NCBI GenBank assembly: GCA_017434555.1
Contig: JAFRFB010000050.1
Location: 1 to 64,000, forward strand
From: Methanobrevibacter sp.
GTDB lineage: Archaea; Methanobacteriota; Methanobacteria; Methanobacteriales; Methanobacteriaceae
DNA: 64,000 nucleotides
Direction: 5' to 3'
Positions 1,744-60,855 of the stretch are shown piece by piece; the first letter of the stretch is position 1; every line of letters starts with the position of its first letter. The translations under genes and the position numbers were made by a program. Under the pieces are notes generated by a model. The model did no database searches and was not told the origin of the DNA. It saw only the letters and a list, made by a program, of their open reading frames with translations.

Positions 1744-2949
1744 ATGGATTTGAAAAATAATTTGCTTTTAACGTTATACACAATAATAATAGGAGTCATG
1801 ACTGGATTAATCATATGGTGCTTTATTCACGCCATGAACTTCGGAATTCATTTCCTGTGGGATTATCTGCCAGATTTAATTAATTTTAAATATTATACTA
1901 TTGTTATGTGCTTAATAGGTGGACTTTTAATAGGTTTATGGAAAAATAAGTATGGGGACAGTCCAGAAGAACTTAATCATGTAATAAAAAAAGTTAAAAA
2001 GGATCATAGATACTCATACAGCAATATTTTCCCATCAATTGTCTCTTCACTATTGCCTCTGATATTTGGTGCCAGCGTGGGGCCTGAAGCAGGTTTGACA
2101 GGCATTATTGCAGGGCTTTATACATGGATTGGAGACAAATTAAGGATATTCAATGAGGAACTTGAAGAATTGACTCATATTGGTATTACGGCAACTTTAG
2201 GAACAATATTTGCCTCACCTATTTTCGGGTTTGTGGAACCGATTGAAAACGAAGACGGCAAGCTGCCAAAAACATCAAAAAACATATTCTATTTTGTAGC
2301 TATTCTAAGTTCCTTTGGGATATTTATATTTTTAAATCATTTAACCCACAATCATGTAGGTCTGCATTCAATAGGTACTGCAACTTTCTCCAATCTTAAT
2401 TATCTGGCTATAATACTCCTGATAATTCTGGGAATACTTCTTTCATATGTCTATTTCATTAGCCACAAATTATCTAAAACAATATTTAAAAGTCTTGATG
2501 GCAATTTTATTGCAAAAGGACTTGTTGGGGGATTAATACTTGGTATAATGGGAACATTACTGCCATTGACAATGTTTTCAGGTGAAGAACAGATTTATCT
2601 TTTGCTTGGATGCGGCGCCCAGCTTGGAGCAGTCGTCCTGATTTTAACAAGCCTTATAAAAATTCTTTTAACGAACGTCTGTATCGAAACGGGCCTTAAA
2701 GGGGGACATTTCTTTCCTCTGATATTTTCAGGAACCGCAATGGGTTTTGCATTAAGTATTATTTTAAATATTGATCCTGTAATTTCAATGTCTGTTGTTA
2801 CAACATCATTTCTGGCAAGTATCCTAAAAAAGCCTATCGCTGTGGTTTTACTGTTAATGATTATCTTTCCGATGAATCTAATTCCATTAATGCTGGTATC
2901 TGCAGTAATAGCATGCTTATTTAAAACTCCGAAATTTTTGGATGTTTAA
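1744..2949 (+). CDS. ClC-family chloride channel or H+/Cl- antiporter
   Basis: A 401-residue polytopic membrane protein. GASVGPEAGL (about 109-118) matches the ClC filter loop that carries the gating glutamate, and GLKGGHFFPLIFSGTAMG (about 319-336) matches the second conserved ClC loop (GxFxP). The first in-frame codon is TTG at 1741, but ATG at 1744 sits better behind the GAGG at 1732, so the ATG is taken. No regulatory CBS or TrkA domain follows. The family moves chloride or fluoride; which ion is carried cannot be read here. Confidence 0.82.
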   Translation: MDLKNNLLLTLYTIIIGVMTGLIIWCFIHAMNFGIHFLWDYLPDLINFKYYTIVMCLIGGLLIGLWKNKYGDSPEELNHVIKKVKKDHRYSYSNIFPSIVSSLLPLIFGASVGPEAGLTGIIAGLYTWIGDKLRIFNEELEELTHIGITATLGTIFASPIFGFVEPIENEDGKLPKTSKNIFYFVAILSSFGIFIFLNHLTHNHVGLHSIGTATFSNLNYLAIILLIILGILLSYVYFISHKLSKTIFKSLDGNFIAKGLVGGLILGIMGTLLPLTMFSGEEQIYLLLGCGAQLGAVVLILTSLIKILLTNVCIETGLKGGHFFPLIFSGTAMGFALSIILNIDPVISMSVVTTSFLASILKKPIAVVLLLMIIFPMNLIPLMLVSAVIACLFKTPKFLDV

Positions 2950-3053
2950 GGTAAATATATTATGTTATAATGTTAAATTATTATTTATAACCTATTGGAA
3001 GCATTATTTTTAAAGAGTTTGCGCAATGTTTTAATCATTTATGGGGTGATAAT

Positions 3054-3869
3054 ATGGATAATGAATTAAAAGAAGACTCTGTTGTTGATAATTCAAAACT
3101 TGAAGAGTTAATGAAACAAGATTTAACTCCTGAAATGCAAAGTGAATTTTTTGAAATACTTAAGGAATCTCAATTATTCATGCTTGTAGTATACAGCGAA
3201 AACATCTTTGAAGGCATAGAAAATATGGAAGAGGGCGACGTTTTTCAGCCTAAAGAGCAGGTTGGATTTAATATTAACTATTTAACGGATAAAGATGGAA
3301 ATAGGATATTGCCGTTATTTACAAGCAGTGAGATTATGAAAAGTATTGGTCTTGAAAGCTCTGTATATGTGCTCTACATGAGTGATTTGGCGGAAATGTT
3401 AAAACAAACGGATAACTATGCATTCATATCAATTAATCCTTTAACTTCTTTTGACATTAATATGAGTGTTGAAGCATTTTTAAATTTATTCATGGAAGAA
3501 AATGAATACATCAAAATATTAAAAGATATGTTGAAATTGTTAAAAGATGCTTCTGTTGAATTGGAGGAGAATTATAATTTCTTTCTTAGAACGGATGATG
3601 ATTTCATGAAAGAAAATGCAGTTGACGGAGTATTCACTCCTGCCATTCCATTTAATATAAGTACTCGTGAGGATTTTAATGATGATTTAAAATATTTGAA
3701 TGTCTTAATATTGCCTGAAGGTGCAAAAATATTATTCCTCGGCGATATTGTTGAGGAAAACCAATTCGATACTGTAATTGCTCCCGGAACGGAATTCAAG
3801 TTTGTTGAAGATTTGGATGATTTTACAAGAGTTTGGGTTTGTGGAGCTCAACCATTCTATGATGAATAA
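3054..3869 (+). CDS. SseB-domain protein
   Basis: A soluble acidic protein of 271 residues. The part around 45-130 (FMLVVYSENIFEG, then LPLFTSSEIMKSIGL and YAFISINPLTSFDI) resembles the SseB N-terminal domain, a family first named for serine sensitivity in E. coli and found as scattered paralogues in Methanobrevibacter. No catalytic motif is visible. GGGGTGAT at 3041-3048 sets the start. The molecular function is unknown. Confidence 0.6.
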   Translation: MDNELKEDSVVDNSKLEELMKQDLTPEMQSEFFEILKESQLFMLVVYSENIFEGIENMEEGDVFQPKEQVGFNINYLTDKDGNRILPLFTSSEIMKSIGLESSVYVLYMSDLAEMLKQTDNYAFISINPLTSFDINMSVEAFLNLFMEENEYIKILKDMLKLLKDASVELEENYNFFLRTDDDFMKENAVDGVFTPAIPFNISTREDFNDDLKYLNVLILPEGAKILFLGDIVEENQFDTVIAPGTEFKFVEDLDDFTRVWVCGAQPFYDE

Positions 3870-6512: not shown

Positions 6513-7736
6513 ATGGGTACCGAATTTTTAAAAATAAAAGAGTGCGATGAGGCACAGGATATTATTCAGGATTTATTTGAAAAGTATTGTACTGCTAAAA
6601 GCGAAGAAATTAACTGTGAAGATGCTTACGGAAGAGTATTATTCAATGACGTTTACAGCCGAATGGACTTTCCGCCATTTGACAAGGCGCTAAAAGACGG
6701 TTTTGCAATATTGTCTGAAGACAGTTACGGTGCAAGTGAAGAGTCACCAAATACTCTTGATGTCATTGATTTTTTAGAGGCAGGTTCCATTACAGATAAA
6801 AAAGTCGAAAAGGGAAAATGTATTGAAATCAGTACCGGAGCTGCAATGCCTGAAGGTGCAAATGCCGTTGTAATGGTAGAATATTCAGAAAAAGAAGACG
6901 GTAAGGTTAATTTATTCACTACTGCAACACCGTCCCAGGATGTTGCAAAGAAAGGTTCAGATATTGAAGAAGGAAATCTTATCCTTAAAAAAGGAGACGT
7001 ATTGACTCCCGGTAAAATTGGCGTATTGTTGTCACAGGGCTTTAAAACAATTGAAGTATATAAAAAGCCTAGTGTTGGAGTTATATCATCCGGAAATGAA
7101 ATTACAATGCAGGGTGAAGATTTGCCATTCGGTAAAATCTATGACGTTAATGGAAACATGATTAAAAATGATGCCATCTCCTGCGGTGCCGATGCAAGAT
7201 TTTTAGGAGTCGTTAGGGATAACTACGACCAGGTAAAAGAAAAGATTCAGGAAGCTCTTGAAGACGTTGATATTCTTTTGTGTTCAGGCGGAACTTCAGC
7301 AGGTCTTGGAGATGTAATAAAACATGTTCTCGATGAGCTCGGTGAAGTTCATATTCACGGAATATCAGTTCAGCCGGGAAAACCAACAATTGTCGGTGTA
7401 ATAGGTGAAAAACTTGTCATAGGTCTTCCTGGAAATCCTGTATCTGCATTGATGATATTCAATGCTTTTGTAGCACCTCCATTAACTAAAGTTGCAGGAA
7501 TTGAAAAGGATTTCGAGCAAAAGGTAGTTAAAGGTGTAATGACTAGAAGAATCCATTCTCCTGTTGGTCGTATGCAGTATCAGCTTGTTAAAGTTGACGG
7601 TTCAGATATTCATCCGATTTTTAAGGATTCCGGTGCAATATTTTCCCTATCCAGTGCTGATGGCTATGTGAAAGTAGAAAAATCAGTTGAATTATTGGAT
7701 GAAGGGGAAGAAGTAGAAGTTTATTTATTCAATTAA
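6513..7736 (+). CDS. moeA: Molybdopterin molybdenumtransferase MoeA
   Basis: A 407-residue protein that inserts molybdate or tungstate into adenylated molybdopterin, needed here for formylmethanofuran and formate dehydrogenases. It has the MoeA N-terminal region with FPPFDKALKDGFA, CIEISTGAAMPEGANAVVMVE (103-123), the MogA-like domain with LLCSGGTSAGLGDV, GLPGNPVSALMIFNAF, and the C-terminal MoeA domain IV. In the first motif the usual SAMDGYA reads KALKDGFA. It is followed by two small genes in the same direction. Confidence 0.93.
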   Translation: MGTEFLKIKECDEAQDIIQDLFEKYCTAKSEEINCEDAYGRVLFNDVYSRMDFPPFDKALKDGFAILSEDSYGASEESPNTLDVIDFLEAGSITDKKVEKGKCIEISTGAAMPEGANAVVMVEYSEKEDGKVNLFTTATPSQDVAKKGSDIEEGNLILKKGDVLTPGKIGVLLSQGFKTIEVYKKPSVGVISSGNEITMQGEDLPFGKIYDVNGNMIKNDAISCGADARFLGVVRDNYDQVKEKIQEALEDVDILLCSGGTSAGLGDVIKHVLDELGEVHIHGISVQPGKPTIVGVIGEKLVIGLPGNPVSALMIFNAFVAPPLTKVAGIEKDFEQKVVKGVMTRRIHSPVGRMQYQLVKVDGSDIHPIFKDSGAIFSLSSADGYVKVEKSVELLDEGEEVEVYLFN

Positions 7737-7761
7737 ATTAAAATTATTATTAGGTGAAAGT

Positions 7762-8223
7762 ATGGAACATGAGATAAAAATTATTCCCGATCAAAAATTA
7801 GCGGTTATTAATTATAAAGGTCCTATTGATGATTTGGACATTCTGGTTTCTAAATTGATGGGATGGGTTGAAGCAGAAGAGGTTGAAGCCGATGGCGAAC
7901 CATTCATTATTTATTTCTCACCAAGACATGAAGTAAATGACGGTGATGCAGTTTACGATGTGGGAATTGCCATTAAGGACGATGCCGATGAAAAAGACAT
8001 TATCCGTGTAGTTGACATGGTGGAACATAAGATGCTTTGTGGAATTCATGAAGGACCTACAGATAACATTTTAGATACCTATGAAAAATTGGTAGAAGTC
8101 TCACAGGCCAACAATTACGATATCATCGGTTCTCCAAAGGAAGTTTTAGTTAAAAGTTTCCACAATTGTGATGACGAAAAAGAATTCATTACAGAAATAC
8201 AATTACCTATTATTGAAATGTAG
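7762..8223 (+). CDS. Stand-alone GyrI-like / AraC effector-binding domain protein
   Basis: A 153-residue protein with the SOUL/GyrI-like pattern: VINYKGPIDDL at the start, FIIYFSPRHEVND in the middle, MLCGIHEGPTDNILDTYEKL, and a C-terminal strand with EFITEIQLPI. Family members bind small molecules; here there is no DNA-binding domain attached. It begins 25 nt after moeA behind AGGTGAAAGT and is probably cotranscribed with it. The ligand is unknown. Confidence 0.7.
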   Translation: MEHEIKIIPDQKLAVINYKGPIDDLDILVSKLMGWVEAEEVEADGEPFIIYFSPRHEVNDGDAVYDVGIAIKDDADEKDIIRVVDMVEHKMLCGIHEGPTDNILDTYEKLVEVSQANNYDIIGSPKEVLVKSFHNCDDEKEFITEIQLPIIEM

Positions 8224-8231
8224 GTGTTAAA

Positions 8232-8486
8232 ATGGCTAAAAAAGAAGAAAAGTTTGATGTTGATAAAGAAATTGAAAGACTGTCTAAAAACACCCGAGCA
8301 AACATTTTTAAATCAGAAAGGAGTTATGAATCCAGAATCAGTAAGTTGGAAAATGAGATTGATAAGGCAATCAAATCAAAAGAAAAGCTATTTGATGAGA
8401 ATAACGTATTGAAAGAAAAACACCTTACAACCGATTATACCGACTCATCTATTGAAACTTACAGGAAAAAATTAAATAAACTTTAA
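8232..8486 (+). CDS. Small coiled-coil protein of unknown function
   Basis: An 84-residue charged protein (Lys/Glu rich), most of it predicted helix with heptad-like spacing (ISKLENEIDKAIKSKEKLF). It starts 8 nt after the GyrI-like gene behind TAGGTGTTAAA, so translation is probably coupled. No domain is recognised. A second long frame here (8224) lacks these features. Confidence 0.6.
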   Translation: MAKKEEKFDVDKEIERLSKNTRANIFKSERSYESRISKLENEIDKAIKSKEKLFDENNVLKEKHLTTDYTDSSIETYRKKLNKL

Positions 8487-8533
8487 TTTTTCCCTTTTAA
8501 TTATTTTTTTTAATGAAATGGATTTAAACACAT

Positions 8534-9841
8534 TTACAGTCCAATAACTTTCAAATCATGAACAAGGATTTTTGGAATTATAAATGAGCCTTTTTGTTTG
8601 ATTTCAGACTTAACACCTTCACAACTGCCCATTAACTCATAGATATTTCCGGATATCATTGCTTTTTTAACGCTATCTGTTATTTCACCGTTTTCAATAA
8701 TGAATGCATTATTTGCCTCTACGGAAAAGTCTCCGGAAATTGGATTTGCAGTATGTGCTCCCAACACGCTGGTTGTTATTATTCCGGAATCAATTTCATC
8801 CAATCCGACATGCGTTTTAAAGTCAAATTCAAGATTTGACGGTGATACGTCGGGAGTTGTTAGGTATGATCCTCTATAACCGTTGGAAGTGCTTTCCTCA
8901 CCTGCTTTATTTGCAGTATAAATGTCATATAGGAATGATTTCAATATTCCGTCTTCAACTAAAACAGTTTTTTTAGAAGCGGTTCCTTCACCGTCTGCTT
9001 TTGCAGTTCCCATCCCACCTTCTAGTAATGGATTATCAATAATTGAAAGGTCAGTATTGGTAATTTCGCTGCCGATTTTATCATGGAGAATTGATCTTCC
9101 TCTTAATACATTTTCTGAATTGAACCCTTGTATAAATGTTGAAAGCAATCCTGATGCAGCATAGTAATCTAGGATAACGTCACAGTCTTTTGTTTCTATT
9201 GATTTTGGATTAAGGGAATCATGGGCCAGTTTACAGACATCATCAGTCAGTTTTTCATATTCCAAATTCAGATGTCTTGATGCGGTGTAATCATATGCCG
9301 TTGCAATTTGGCCGTCCTTTTCTATATTTACGGATAGGCCTCCGCTAAATCCGGTTCCTTCATCATAAATGGACACTCCATTTGAATTTAAAATCAACTC
9401 TTCGCCTTTGGATGCTGAAAATCCGGTGGAGCTTATGTCACACTTGTTTTCTTTTGCCCTTTCAATGATGTTTTCTAAAAATTCACAGCATTCGTCTAGA
9501 CTTAAATCATCATATTTTTTATCATATGTTCCTTTAACGTCACTGACTTTTTCAACACTTGCAAATTCATAATTTTCATCAACTTTATTTAGTTTTGCAT
9601 TGTCCAAGGCTTTTTTGGCAGTTTGCGGGATTTTATCCAAATCGGATGTGTATGCAAAACCGATTTTTCCATCTTTGATTATACGGATTCCAACTCCGCT
9701 GTCAATTTCTTCCTTTGCAAAACTTAAGATATCCTTTTTGGATTCAACTTCAATACTTTCAGTGTTTGCTATATAAATTTCCCATGCATCAGACAGTTTT
9801 TCAACTTCTTTTACACATTTATCTGCAATTTCATGTATCAT
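8534..9841 (-). CDS. pmbA: TldE/PmbA-family metalloprotease subunit
   Basis: A 435-residue member of the TldD/PmbA family. It has the N-terminal region with DSGVGIRIIKDGKIGFAYTS and the C-terminal family region with GGMGTAKADGEGTASKKTVL and SNGYRGSYLTTP. In bacteria TldE pairs with TldD, which holds the HExxxH zinc site; that motif is absent here, so this is the TldE-type partner. TldD is not in the window. It lies 1 nt after the phosphoglycolate phosphatase gene and ends the three-gene hypD run. Confidence 0.88.
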   Translation of the reverse strand: MIHEIADKCVKEVEKLSDAWEIYIANTESIEVESKKDILSFAKEEIDSGVGIRIIKDGKIGFAYTSDLDKIPQTAKKALDNAKLNKVDENYEFASVEKVSDVKGTYDKKYDDLSLDECCEFLENIIERAKENKCDISSTGFSASKGEELILNSNGVSIYDEGTGFSGGLSVNIEKDGQIATAYDYTASRHLNLEYEKLTDDVCKLAHDSLNPKSIETKDCDVILDYYAASGLLSTFIQGFNSENVLRGRSILHDKIGSEITNTDLSIIDNPLLEGGMGTAKADGEGTASKKTVLVEDGILKSFLYDIYTANKAGEESTSNGYRGSYLTTPDVSPSNLEFDFKTHVGLDEIDSGIITTSVLGAHTANPISGDFSVEANNAFIIENGEITDSVKKAMISGNIYELMGSCEGVKSEIKQKGSFIIPKILVHDLKVIGL

Positions 9842-36166: not shown

Positions 36167-36706
36167 ATGAATGTTAATGTATTAAGATTAGATCATAGAT
36201 TAAAAAGAGATACTCGTATTACAACTCACGTATGTTTAACTGCCCGTGCATTCGGAGCAAGCAAAATCTACCTTGCAGGTGAAAAAGACAACAAACTGAT
36301 GGACAATGTACGCGATACTTCAAAAAGATTCGGCGGTAACTTTGAAATAGAACACACTGATTCTTATATGGGCATTATCAATAAATGGAAAAATAACGGC
36401 GGAAAAGTAGTTCACCTGACAATGTACGGTTCACAGGCCCATGAAGTTGCTCCTGAAATTAGAGAAGACGGAAGCGATATATTAATCATTGTTGGAGGTT
36501 CAAAAGTTCCGGGAAAGGTTTATAAGGCCGCTGACTGGAATGTGTCAGTTACAACACAGCCTCATTCTGAAGTTTCATCTTTGGCTGTTTTCCAGCACTT
36601 ATTGATGGACGGAAAGGAATTCGACTTGGAATTTGAAAACCCTGTATTGGAAGTTATTCCCACAGCACATGGAAAAAACGTCAATATCCATGATGAAAAC
36701 CGCTAG
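36167..36706 (+). CDS. tRNA (cytidine-56 2'-O)-methyltransferase Trm56
   Basis: A 179-residue SPOUT methyltransferase found only in archaea, methylating the 2'-O of C56 in the T loop. It starts VNVLRLDHRLKRDTRITTHV, and has the knot region ILIIVGGSKVPGKVYKAADWNVSV and QPHSEVSSLAVFQHL. The gene ends 4 nt inside the convergent DUF763 gene, so the two stops overlap. Confidence 0.92.
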   Translation: MNVNVLRLDHRLKRDTRITTHVCLTARAFGASKIYLAGEKDNKLMDNVRDTSKRFGGNFEIEHTDSYMGIINKWKNNGGKVVHLTMYGSQAHEVAPEIREDGSDILIIVGGSKVPGKVYKAADWNVSVTTQPHSEVSSLAVFQHLLMDGKEFDLEFENPVLEVIPTAHGKNVNIHDENR

Positions 36707-37797
36707 GATATAAAGTCATCTAATCTTTTAATGGCTTTTAATTTTTCATCTTTTTTTATTCTTGCCTGGTCAAGAGCATCTTTTATTGTTTGAATTGAAT
36801 TATCATAGACTTCCTTATCAACAGGATATGGAAAACCGTCCTTTCCTCCATGGGTAAAACTGTATTTGACTGGATCTTTCCAGCTTGCAGGTTCACCATA
36901 AACCAAATCGGATATTAATGCAAGTGCCCTGATTTTTTTGGGACCAATTCCCTTAAGTAAAATCAGCTCTTCATAATTTTCAGGCTGTATTTCCCACGCA
37001 TTTTTTAAAACTTCAAATTCCTTATCTGAAATGTCCATATCAAGCACAGGGTGATGAGCAGGCATTGAAAAGTCTTCTAAAAGCGTCTGATTATCTTTTC
37101 TTTTAAAGTATTGTCTTAAATGATCAGGATTGTCGTTAATCAAATCAACACTAATTTTTTGGGCCGATTCACTTTCCTTATCGGTCATATTTAATGTGTT
37201 AGGAGTTTTCATGTCACAGGAAATTCCACTGTGCGGGTCTATGAGTAAATCGTTTACTTCCTCTCCCATCCAATGATAACGGCGGGCATATTTGTTATCC
37301 GTATTCATTCCCTGCTGTATAACGGCCCAGTCACTTTTTTCCGTTACAAAGAAATGGTGCTGGTATAATGTATAGCCGTCCTGAATGCAGGAATTATCAA
37401 TTTTAGCAGATAATTTGCTTGTTTCAATCAGCTTTTCTGTTGTTTTTGTTTTTAGATTAAAGACATCTCCTGCATGAGCAATGCCTTCTGGAGTTTTACG
37501 GGATTTAGCGCCTTTGCCTCCGCTTAAATAAATTCCATGTTCTTCAGGAGATAATGATTCCTTAAGTGCACCCATTGTGGTGGTTGTCGTTCCTGAAGAA
37601 TGCCCGTCAAAGCCTAAAACACATGAAAATGCCTGAAACCAATAAGGATTGGAAATTCTTCTAATGAACTCATTTAAACTGTATTCCTCAATAATCACTG
37701 ATGTTAATGCTCCAGACAGTTCAACCATCCTTGAAAATAGCCATCTTGGGGGATGCCCTCCATGCAGCGGTAAATTTACTGCTCCTCTTCTTTGCAT
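36703..37797 (-). CDS. DUF763-family protein
   Basis: A 364-residue protein starting MQRRGAVNLPLHGGHPPRWL, with GFDGHSSGTTTTTMGALKES and EPASWKDPVKYSFTHGGKDG. The central LLKGIGPKKIRALALISDLVYG is a helix-hairpin-helix motif, which suggests DNA contact. The family is found in archaea and some thermophilic bacteria and its function is not settled. The gene stands alone before a 620-nt spacer. Confidence 0.88.
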   Translation of the reverse strand: MQRRGAVNLPLHGGHPPRWLFSRMVELSGALTSVIIEEYSLNEFIRRISNPYWFQAFSCVLGFDGHSSGTTTTTMGALKESLSPEEHGIYLSGGKGAKSRKTPEGIAHAGDVFNLKTKTTEKLIETSKLSAKIDNSCIQDGYTLYQHHFFVTEKSDWAVIQQGMNTDNKYARRYHWMGEEVNDLLIDPHSGISCDMKTPNTLNMTDKESESAQKISVDLINDNPDHLRQYFKRKDNQTLLEDFSMPAHHPVLDMDISDKEFEVLKNAWEIQPENYEELILLKGIGPKKIRALALISDLVYGEPASWKDPVKYSFTHGGKDGFPYPVDKEVYDNSIQTIKDALDQARIKKDEKLKAIKRLDDFIS

Positions 37798-38017: not shown

Positions 38018-38208
38018 TTTTATAAAAATTTTTATTAAAGATAGTTTTTGTCTAAAAAGGTTGCAGAGGATATAAATCCTCAACCAAACCCACATTTAGA
38101 CATTTTTTAACCATACAATCTGTTTGACAAGAATGGTTTTAGTTTCACTACAGTATGAGAAACAATAGAATATGAGAACAATCCATGATTGGAGTATAAC
38201 ATATTCTA
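38018..38208 (+). ncRNA. Candidate structured non-coding RNA
   Basis: A TATA box (TTTATAAAAA, 38018-38027) predicts a transcript start near 38048. From there four hairpins follow. H1 (38049-38102) has outer arms TGTCTAAA/TTTAGACA, then GGTT/AACC, and an inner GAGGAT-ataa-ATCCTC stem, followed by six T. H2 (38109-38138) has AACCAT/ATGGTT, H3 (38142-38163) has GTTTC/GAAAC, and H4 (38166-38208) has TAGAATATG/CATATTCTA enclosing CAATC-cat-GATTG. No C/D box pair is clear and no known RNA class is recognised. Confidence 0.5.
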
Positions 38209-38262
38209 GTGCATAGTATATTTTCATATCTTTATAAAATTATTGTTTACTTTTTGTGAATT

Positions 38263-38329
38263 AACCCCTAATTTAATGGTATAATATTTTATATTAGGAA
38301 ATTCATATTTTTCTATAGTTTTAGGGGTT
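38263..38329. repeat. Long-range perfect 9-bp inverted repeat
   Basis: AACCCCTAA (38263-38271) and TTAGGGGTT (38321-38329) are exact reverse complements 49 nt apart. The arms are the only GC-rich segments in their surroundings. This could be the closing stem of another RNA or the ends of a small relic element. Confidence 0.45.
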
Positions 38330-38417
38330 TGAAATGTATGTTTGGCCAGGATTATTCGAAACGTAAAAAAATATTGAAAAAAATAGATTTATCAACAAAA
38401 TAATTATATTTCATTGA

Positions 38418-39299
38418 TTATATAAATTTTCCAATCCGAAAGTTTTTCCCAGGTTTTTTTAAAGTAAAAAGATATTCGGCCTCGGCATTATCAGGTATTT
38501 TGTCCCAGAGTTCTGATGCCTTTGCCGTCAGTTCATGACTTATAGGGAAGTTGTTTGCAACATAGCCAATCTTTTCATCCTTGAAATATACTGCAATCGC
38601 ATCAGGGTCAAATTCATTATTCGGTTCCTTTACAAGTCGGTAGGGCGTTCCTGGAGTAAAGCATGAATGATTGTCACAAAAATCATTTCCGGTAATCGTA
38701 AATAGTTCAGAACTGTCATATTCCCTTAAGGTTTTAAAATTATTCGAATATTCCTTTTCCATATTTATCGATGAACGGATTGAATCTTTCAAGTTTAAAT
38801 ATTTATCAATATTTTTGTTGTTGTTTTCATCAGGAAGCGTATTTATGGGTGTTGTTATTTTTTCTTCTGCTTCATTTAGTTTTTTAAGCGGATCATAAGA
38901 TTCTTTTGATTCCTGAACTAAATTGATTGCCCATTCATATAGCATTTTTGCCCTGTTGTCCCGAACCGAATCCGTCTGATTCAGTTGAAGTGACCTTTTG
39001 TAGCATTTGTCGGATTCTTCATATCTTTTCATACTTCCCAAAATAATTGCTTTTAACTCCCAGCTTCTTGCATGTTTATTATCCAAATCCAATGCCAAAT
39101 TCACATAGTCAAGTGCCTCTTTCTTATTATTTTTCATATAAAAATGATGCCTTGCCTTTTCTAAATACTCATCTCTTTTGCTATTCTTATTAACCGGTTC
39201 ATCATCTATAATATAGTATCCGGAATTCCAGTTTTGAGCATCCATCCAGCCGTCGGTCGAATAGTCGACAGGATCACCAATCTGCCATTTTCTTCCCAT
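38418..39299 (-). CDS. TPR and HIRAN domain protein
   Basis: The N-terminal half has TPR-like repeats (about 30-110: ARHHFYMKNNKKEALDYVN, ESDKCYKRSLQLNQ). The C-terminal part (about 195-293) matches a HIRAN domain: FTPGTPYRLVKEPNNEFDPD, AIAVYFKDEKIGYVANNF. HIRAN domains bind DNA ends or damaged DNA in eukaryotes; in prokaryotes they often stand alone. The start ATG 39299 follows AAGGTGC, better than the upstream GTG at 39308. Confidence 0.75.
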   Translation of the reverse strand: MGRKWQIGDPVDYSTDGWMDAQNWNSGYYIIDDEPVNKNSKRDEYLEKARHHFYMKNNKKEALDYVNLALDLDNKHARSWELKAIILGSMKRYEESDKCYKRSLQLNQTDSVRDNRAKMLYEWAINLVQESKESYDPLKKLNEAEEKITTPINTLPDENNNKNIDKYLNLKDSIRSSINMEKEYSNNFKTLREYDSSELFTITGNDFCDNHSCFTPGTPYRLVKEPNNEFDPDAIAVYFKDEKIGYVANNFPISHELTAKASELWDKIPDNAEAEYLFTLKKPGKNFRIGKFI

Positions 39300-39432
39300 T
39301 ATTAGCACCTTGATTACATATTGGCATAATGATTATATGAAAGTTGTGTATAAATTATTAATAATTGTGGTTGGTTAAGTTTTCAATATTTCTTGAGATA
39401 TATTCGAAACAAAATAATTAATATGAATTTAT

Positions 39433-60244: not shown

Positions 60245-60318
60245 GCCTCGGTGGCTCAGCCTGGTAGAGCGCCAGACTTGTAATCTGGTGGTCGCGGGTT
60301 CAATTCCCGCCCGGGGCT
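60245..60318 (+). tRNA. tRNA-Thr (anticodon TGT)
   Basis: The acceptor arms GCCTCGG/CCGGGGC pair (one T-G). The anticodon loop is CTTGTAA between CCAGA and TCTGG. The D and T arms are regular (GGTTCAATTCC). CCA is not encoded. First of five tRNAs in 600 nt. Confidence 0.95.
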
Positions 60319-60396
60319 TTAATATGTTGTTTTTCATATTAAGTTAGTTAACTTTATATACAAAGAAATTTATATCATAATATGTTGTATGTTGTT

Positions 60397-60471
<75 letters not shown>

Positions 60472-60478
60472 TTTTAGT

Positions 60479-60552
<74 letters not shown>

Positions 60553-60676
60553 TTTCAATTATTTTATTGAAGTCAGATAATTTTTTTTAAAAATCCTATC
60601 TTTTTTCAAAACATTTATATATGATGAGTGTCATATTAAATTAATAGTGTATAATTGAATACATCATTTAAGTGTT

Positions 60677-60750
<74 letters not shown>

Positions 60751-60771
60751 CTTAAATTATCATATGTTCAT

Positions 60772-60855
<84 letters not shown>

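Follow-up and report, generated by a model that had tools for sequence, protein, structure and literature searches.

A putative antitoxin-type small RNA on the minus strand of a Methanobrevibacter intergenic spacer

Results

The window analyzed here is a 64,000-nucleotide stretch of contig JAFRFB010000050.1 from a Methanobrevibacter assembly (GCA_017434555.1). The feature under study lies in a spacer bounded by two leftward-reading genes that stand outside the system, a DUF763 gene (positions 36703-37797, minus strand) and a gene encoding a TPR plus HIRAN domain protein (38418-39308, minus strand). The preliminary description saw no gene in this spacer and proposed four successive hairpins on the plus strand; we likewise found no recognizable gene there, and every stem was found at the positions given for it: 38049-38056/38095-38102 with an inner hairpin at 38059-38085, 38109-38114/38133-38138, 38142-38146/38159-38163 and 38167-38174/38200-38207. 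The local symmetry had been considered to exceed chance, and it does so: none of 200 dinucleotide shuffles of the 191-nt region folds as stably on either strand (z -3.6 on the plus strand, z -5.3 on the minus strand), and none of 130 GC-matched 191-nt segments from the same window is as stable as the minus-strand fold. TATA-like boxes flank the feature on both sides, one on the plus strand at 38018-38027 and one on the minus strand at 38239-38230, which precedes the hairpin at 38207 by 32 nt. Five tRNA genes are clustered elsewhere in the window (60245-60845).

Read on the minus strand, with its 5' end at the right, the putative sRNA would occupy approximately 38037-38207, as judged by the fold and by homology to copies in G021 (C4) and G069 (C158 and C127); all of the elements described next are on that strand. 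The predicted TATA box TTTTATAAAG (38230-38239) and its 32-nt distance from the 5' hairpin recur in homologous sRNAs, e.g., as TTTATATA. Directly upstream of this promoter is an inverted repeat, AACCCCTAA...TTAGGGGTT (38263-38335). The 5' hairpin AGAATATG...CATATTCT (38167-38207) represents the GAATATG/CATATTC hairpin of nearly all family members, and is followed by a second hairpin, GTTTC/GAAAC (38142-38163), which in the G021 copy has the compensated form GTTTCAC/GTGAAAC. The middle hairpin AACCAT/ATGGTT (38109-38138) holds a predicted SD-pairing segment, CCAUUC (38131-38136), and cognate segments are CCAGUCC/GGACUGG in G021 and CCAUUC/GAAUGG in C127. The terminal stem P1, which shows compensatory changes in 36 homologs, is formed by the 5' arm UGUCUAAA (38095-38102) and the 3' arm UUUAGACA (38049-38056) and encloses the inner hairpin P2 (38059-38085). 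On the 5' side of the P1-P2 internal loop lies the predicted kissing segment AUGUGGG (38089-38095), its first base being the last base of the P1 arm; its position and complementarity are as in 22 relatives. An oligo-U tract (38024-38028) is, from the sequence only, a possible 3' end. The hairpin order is thereby the reverse of that first proposed, such that the original H4 is the 5' hairpin, H3 the second, H2 the middle and H1 the 3'-terminal one, and the T run placed after H1 reads as a row of A residues in the RNA, which is no terminator.

Homologs were sought by whole-genome searches that score the best candidates per genome only, across genomes of which many are fragmentary. The G021 copy is 75% identical to the window copy (E 4e-10), and G069 encodes two more (C158 and C127). 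These genomes belong to two other species of the genus, and each copy has a different gene context: the G021 copy sits between a CPBP-type protease gene and gltX, and the C158 copy is inside a provirus with an integrase and Sak4- and clamp-loader-like proteins. Compensatory changes among relatives, suggested beforehand as a check on the hairpins, were found, in that the stems of the G021 and G069 copies differ in sequence and yet stay paired, and the structure is therefore selected. In the commonest, type II loci, the sRNA unit follows a peptide gene in that gene's reading direction and comprises a TATA box TTTATATA, a distance of approximately 32 nt, the hairpin GAATATG/CATATTC, a middle segment, and a terminal stem UUGUCUAA/UUAGACAA, inside which lie a bulged segment of 7 nt and an inner hairpin. 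When the window feature is reverse-complemented, it shows precisely the same layout, from the TATA box approximately 32 nt upstream through the 5' hairpin and middle pairing segment to P1, with its 5'-side internal-loop segment, and P2.

A covariance model of the type II sRNA terminal domain (R3), built with the window excluded, detected 34 convincing copies, which come from 23 of the 139 genomes of the family and all belong to the window's genus, and no copies elsewhere in the order. Its two helices covary, with both partners altered in 10 of 17 pairs and 93% of cells paired, and 0 of 500 shuffles was as good. R3 locates the window copy in the right place and on the right strand with 15 bits and an E-value of about 1, a rough figure, as E-values from home-made models are; because R3 gives only these 15 bits, the window's link to the family runs through G021 and G069. 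The phage and plasmid collections yielded no match for the sRNA or for the peptide 3' UTR described below, and pattern scans of IMG/VR and GTDB returned mostly bacterial chance matches that the covariance model rejected; L074 was a false, bacterial hit. Tandem sRNA pairs occur at single loci (L194 1300/1502, L196 494/696 and L205 21/202), and in G003 only the first sRNA of such a pair matches the local peptide mRNA. A simple scan found sRNA copies without an adjacent matching 3' UTR in L202, L206, L210, L213 and L200 (2331-2395), possibly more solitary copies.

A second conserved element lies approximately 60-450 nt from each of the three other copies (G021 and the two of G069), and a covariance model of it (R2) recovered roughly one and a half dozen members within the genus. 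Opposite every good R2 member, the other strand encodes a hydrophobic peptide of 23-27 residues, the ORF of which starts 5-9 nt after GGAGG or a similar sequence and stops 60-80 nt before the element. Examples are MADELLLFIEIIALTLHVLKLIN (G021), MANALAIVINVVSIILAITSLYLALN (G000 C19) and MIKYILLLLSVITLVLSVIDIWL (G000 C95). Substitutions favor synonymous sites (pooled pN/pS 0.33), and the peptides are, by this measure, under purifying selection. On this basis, the second element is the 3' UTR of the peptide mRNA, and it folds as a long stem with two inner hairpins. About 20 peptide/sRNA loci were found by the covariance models, all in the window's genus, and their SD is mostly GGAGG or GGGGG. 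No family in Pfam, NCBIfam or PADLOC matches the peptides above its cut-off.

Two other interpretations of these elements were dropped. One took element A, the second element, as a separate RNA opposite the peptide, partnered by B on the plus strand; the tandem loci contradict this, as A is there the peptide mRNA 3' UTR read backward and B has to be reverse-complemented to give the sRNA. The other took element A as an MSTV1-like provirus packaging RNA and was abandoned because MSTV1 is without the element. The L136 sequence (7128-9530) is from a relative of MSTV1 (PP537965, 16197-18399) in which the C terminus of a head gene has been swapped, a different small gene follows, and the peptide gene has been inserted ahead of the gene for the XkdF-type protease. 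The G000 C95 locus (L224, 1360-1717) is a complete peptide/sRNA locus by a tyrosine recombinase gene (1951-2544, plus strand) and cas1 (2686-3498, minus strand).

Two complementarities between sRNA and peptide mRNA are present at nearly every locus. One is between the bulged sRNA segment of approximately 7 nt and a hairpin loop of the mRNA 3' UTR, and the other is between the middle segment and a region before the start codon, the target there often being the loop of a hairpin that holds the SD. Sequences at the 3' site change together, as in CUUGCGG/CCGCAAG, CUGAUGG/CCAUCAG, CUGGUAG/CUACCAG, CGGGUAG/CUACCCG, CGGAUGG/CCAUCCG, AUGUGAU/AUCACAU, AUGUGGG/CCCACAU, AUGUUGGG/CCCAACAU and others, and pairs at the 5' site include AUACAAAAGA/UCUUUUGUAU, AUACAAGA/UCUUGUAU, CCAGUCC/GGACUGG and AACCUCC/GGAGGUU, reaching 13-16 bp in some. 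Because the loci are related, permutation figures overstate their independence, and it is with this reservation that cognate partners at the 3' site of 22 loci score 6.39 vs 4.69 when permuted (z 7.8, 0 of 20,000), that the type II loci alone give z 6.2 (0 of 20,000), and that the 5' site of 18 loci gives z 7.5 (0 of 20,000). Taking the opposite sRNA strand lowers the 3' site score to 3.4. At the 5' site several loci fail to rank first, the sRNA nearest the G053 peptide gene does not match that gene, and at some other loci the pairing is of 5-6 bp only.

Near the window copy we found no SD-preceded hydrophobic ORF and no 3' UTR hairpin, and no cognate mRNA was recognized elsewhere in its own genome, the assembly of which is 99.5% complete and contains two complete loci, C19 and C95, whose specificity differs. 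Its 3'-site segment matches the peptide mRNA of the C158 provirus at 7 of 7 positions (the 5' region there is not sequenced) and those of L136, the MSTV1 relative, and G074, a locus beside terminase and Mu-type portal genes, with one G-U pair each; in both L136 and G074 the 5'-site match is CCAUUCU/GGAAUGG. All three are provirus loci from related species, and their peptide genes are its best matches. This ranking of targets is weak, since the unrelated loci G053, G060 and G018 score almost as high.

Discussion

The window feature is probably a minus-strand sRNA of a previously undescribed antitoxin-type family in a Methanobrevibacter-related genus, the partner mRNA of which, in relatives, encodes a hydrophobic peptide of 23-27 residues, in an arrangement best read as a type I toxin-antitoxin system. 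The sequences show the sRNA family and its structure, a peptide ORF with an SD under purifying selection, and covarying complementarity at both sites; transcription, the order of contacts, translational repression and peptide toxicity are inferred. In the proposed mechanism, the bulged segment would first make a kissing contact with the loop in the mRNA 3' UTR, the middle segment would then pair before the start codon and hide the SD, and the peptide would not be made, as in Fst/RNA II. The relatives thus have both parts expected of a type I system, a short hydrophobic peptide gene with a ribosome-binding site (about 20 loci) and an RNA complementary to the peptide mRNA at two covarying sites. 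The window locus is without a toxin gene, and for that reason we file its RNA as a solitary antitoxin-type RNA and not as a complete system.

The window RNA may be either the remnant of a locus from which the peptide gene has gone or a guard against copies that arrive with proviruses. The guard reading is attractive; the remnant is at least as likely. That the peptide gene of a complete locus was lost, leaving an RNA now without function, is a strong possibility, if somewhat short of probable. It would account for the lack of a partner nearby or elsewhere in the genome, and further solitary copies exist. However, decay would be expected to blur the very parts that the window copy retains, namely its promoter, all of its stems and both segments (AUGUGGG, 38095-38089, and CCAUUC, 38136-38131).

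It is conceivable, but rather unlikely, that the peptides are not toxins at all and are instead small membrane peptides of ordinary function under the control of a dedicated sRNA. In several species the type II loci share one conserved location, immediately upstream of aspS (L199 118-1446, and others), which would fit a chromosomal function, and the toxicity of the peptides is so far a prediction. Their size, hydrophobicity and paired sRNA are nevertheless typical of type I toxins, as are their patchy spread, their diversity and their presence in three proviruses.

The assignment of the antitoxin-type RNA to the minus strand draws on several lines of evidence. Pairs of G-U outnumber those of A-C by 28 to 5 in the homologous sRNAs, which fixes the strand, minus in the window, and two G-U pairs in the inner stem of the G069 C127 copy agree with this. 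The pairing segments, fold energy and conserved distance from TATA box to hairpin point the same way. A free-standing plus-strand RNA, as originally proposed, is very improbable: the TATA-like box at 38018-38027 exists and is suitably spaced, and the stem AACCA/TGGTT retains a T-G pair on the plus strand in G021, but that box is not at a position conserved in relatives, whereas the minus-strand one is, the G-U and A-C counts contradict it, its fold is the weaker one, and complementarity to the partner is lost. What survives of the preliminary description is thus an RNA that is real, structured and absent from Rfam, where no family reaches the gathering score, although it is read from the opposite strand. 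Its nature could not be recognized from the wrong strand, and the statement that it resembles no known RNA class needs to be qualified, since members of the family are built like type I antitoxin RNAs. Least probable of all is that the feature serves as leader or terminator for the DUF763 gene, which is next on the same strand with its start codon approximately 240 nt further on, as the homologs adjoin unrelated genes (gltX, provirus genes and glycosyltransferases).

According to a 2025 paper, the known range of type I systems was limited to Proteobacteria, Firmicutes and Tenericutes (PMC12390103). We found no archaeal case in the open-access literature, which was the scope of the search, and within that scope the type I arrangement has been reported previously only in bacteria. 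If our reading is true, approximately 20 loci in gut and rumen methanogens would extend type I systems to another domain of life, archaeal biology would gain a base-pairing sRNA system in which the contacts are predicted precisely, and methanogen genetics would gain simple addiction modules. Solitary copies that match provirus-borne peptide genes make RNA-based anti-addiction directly testable.

Methanosarcina sRNA162 also comes from a methanogen and uses distinct domains to pair with mRNAs (PMC3510493), a likeness to the present family, but it has no link to a peptide gene and is part of no toxin-antitoxin system. CreTA is an RNA-based toxin-antitoxin of archaea and bacteria in which Cascade, directed by a CRISPR-like guide, silences the RNA toxin CreT (PMC8501985, PMC9458426). 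It shares with the present system an RNA antitoxin in archaea, and, coincidentally, cas1 is close to the G000 C95 locus. Here, in contrast, the partner encodes a conserved peptide, from which we judge that it is not a Cascade-silenced RNA toxin, and the sRNA is predicted to pair with the mRNA itself.

The SprA/SprG-type and TxpA/RatA-type systems of Firmicutes also combine a short membrane peptide with an antisense RNA, and the G048a peptide has a resemblance to PepG1 that is below any cut-off (E 0.047, cut-off 70 bits). Their antitoxins, however, overlap the toxin gene on the opposite strand, whereas the archaeal sRNA is a separate gene that matches two short stretches only. Fst/RNA II, the par locus of plasmid pAD1, is a type I toxin-antitoxin of Firmicutes that uses two kinds of contact, with the loop at the mRNA 3' end first and with the translation-start region for repression (PMC7472228). 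The archaeal system likewise has a small hydrophobic peptide, an sRNA with two separate predicted pairing sites, an SD that appears within an mRNA hairpin (e.g., CCUC...GGAGG or CCCC...GGGG), and an occurrence both in proviruses and on chromosomes. It differs in being archaeal, in peptides that match neither Pfam nor the Fst family and are devoid of the Fst-type PXXXG motif, in an sRNA of about 130-210 nt with its own promoter and three to four hairpins, and in genes that are mostly tandem, without a shared bidirectional terminator or direct repeats. The archaeal system is closest in logic to Fst/RNA II and would work like it; because peptides, gene order and sRNA all differ, it is no member of the Fst family.
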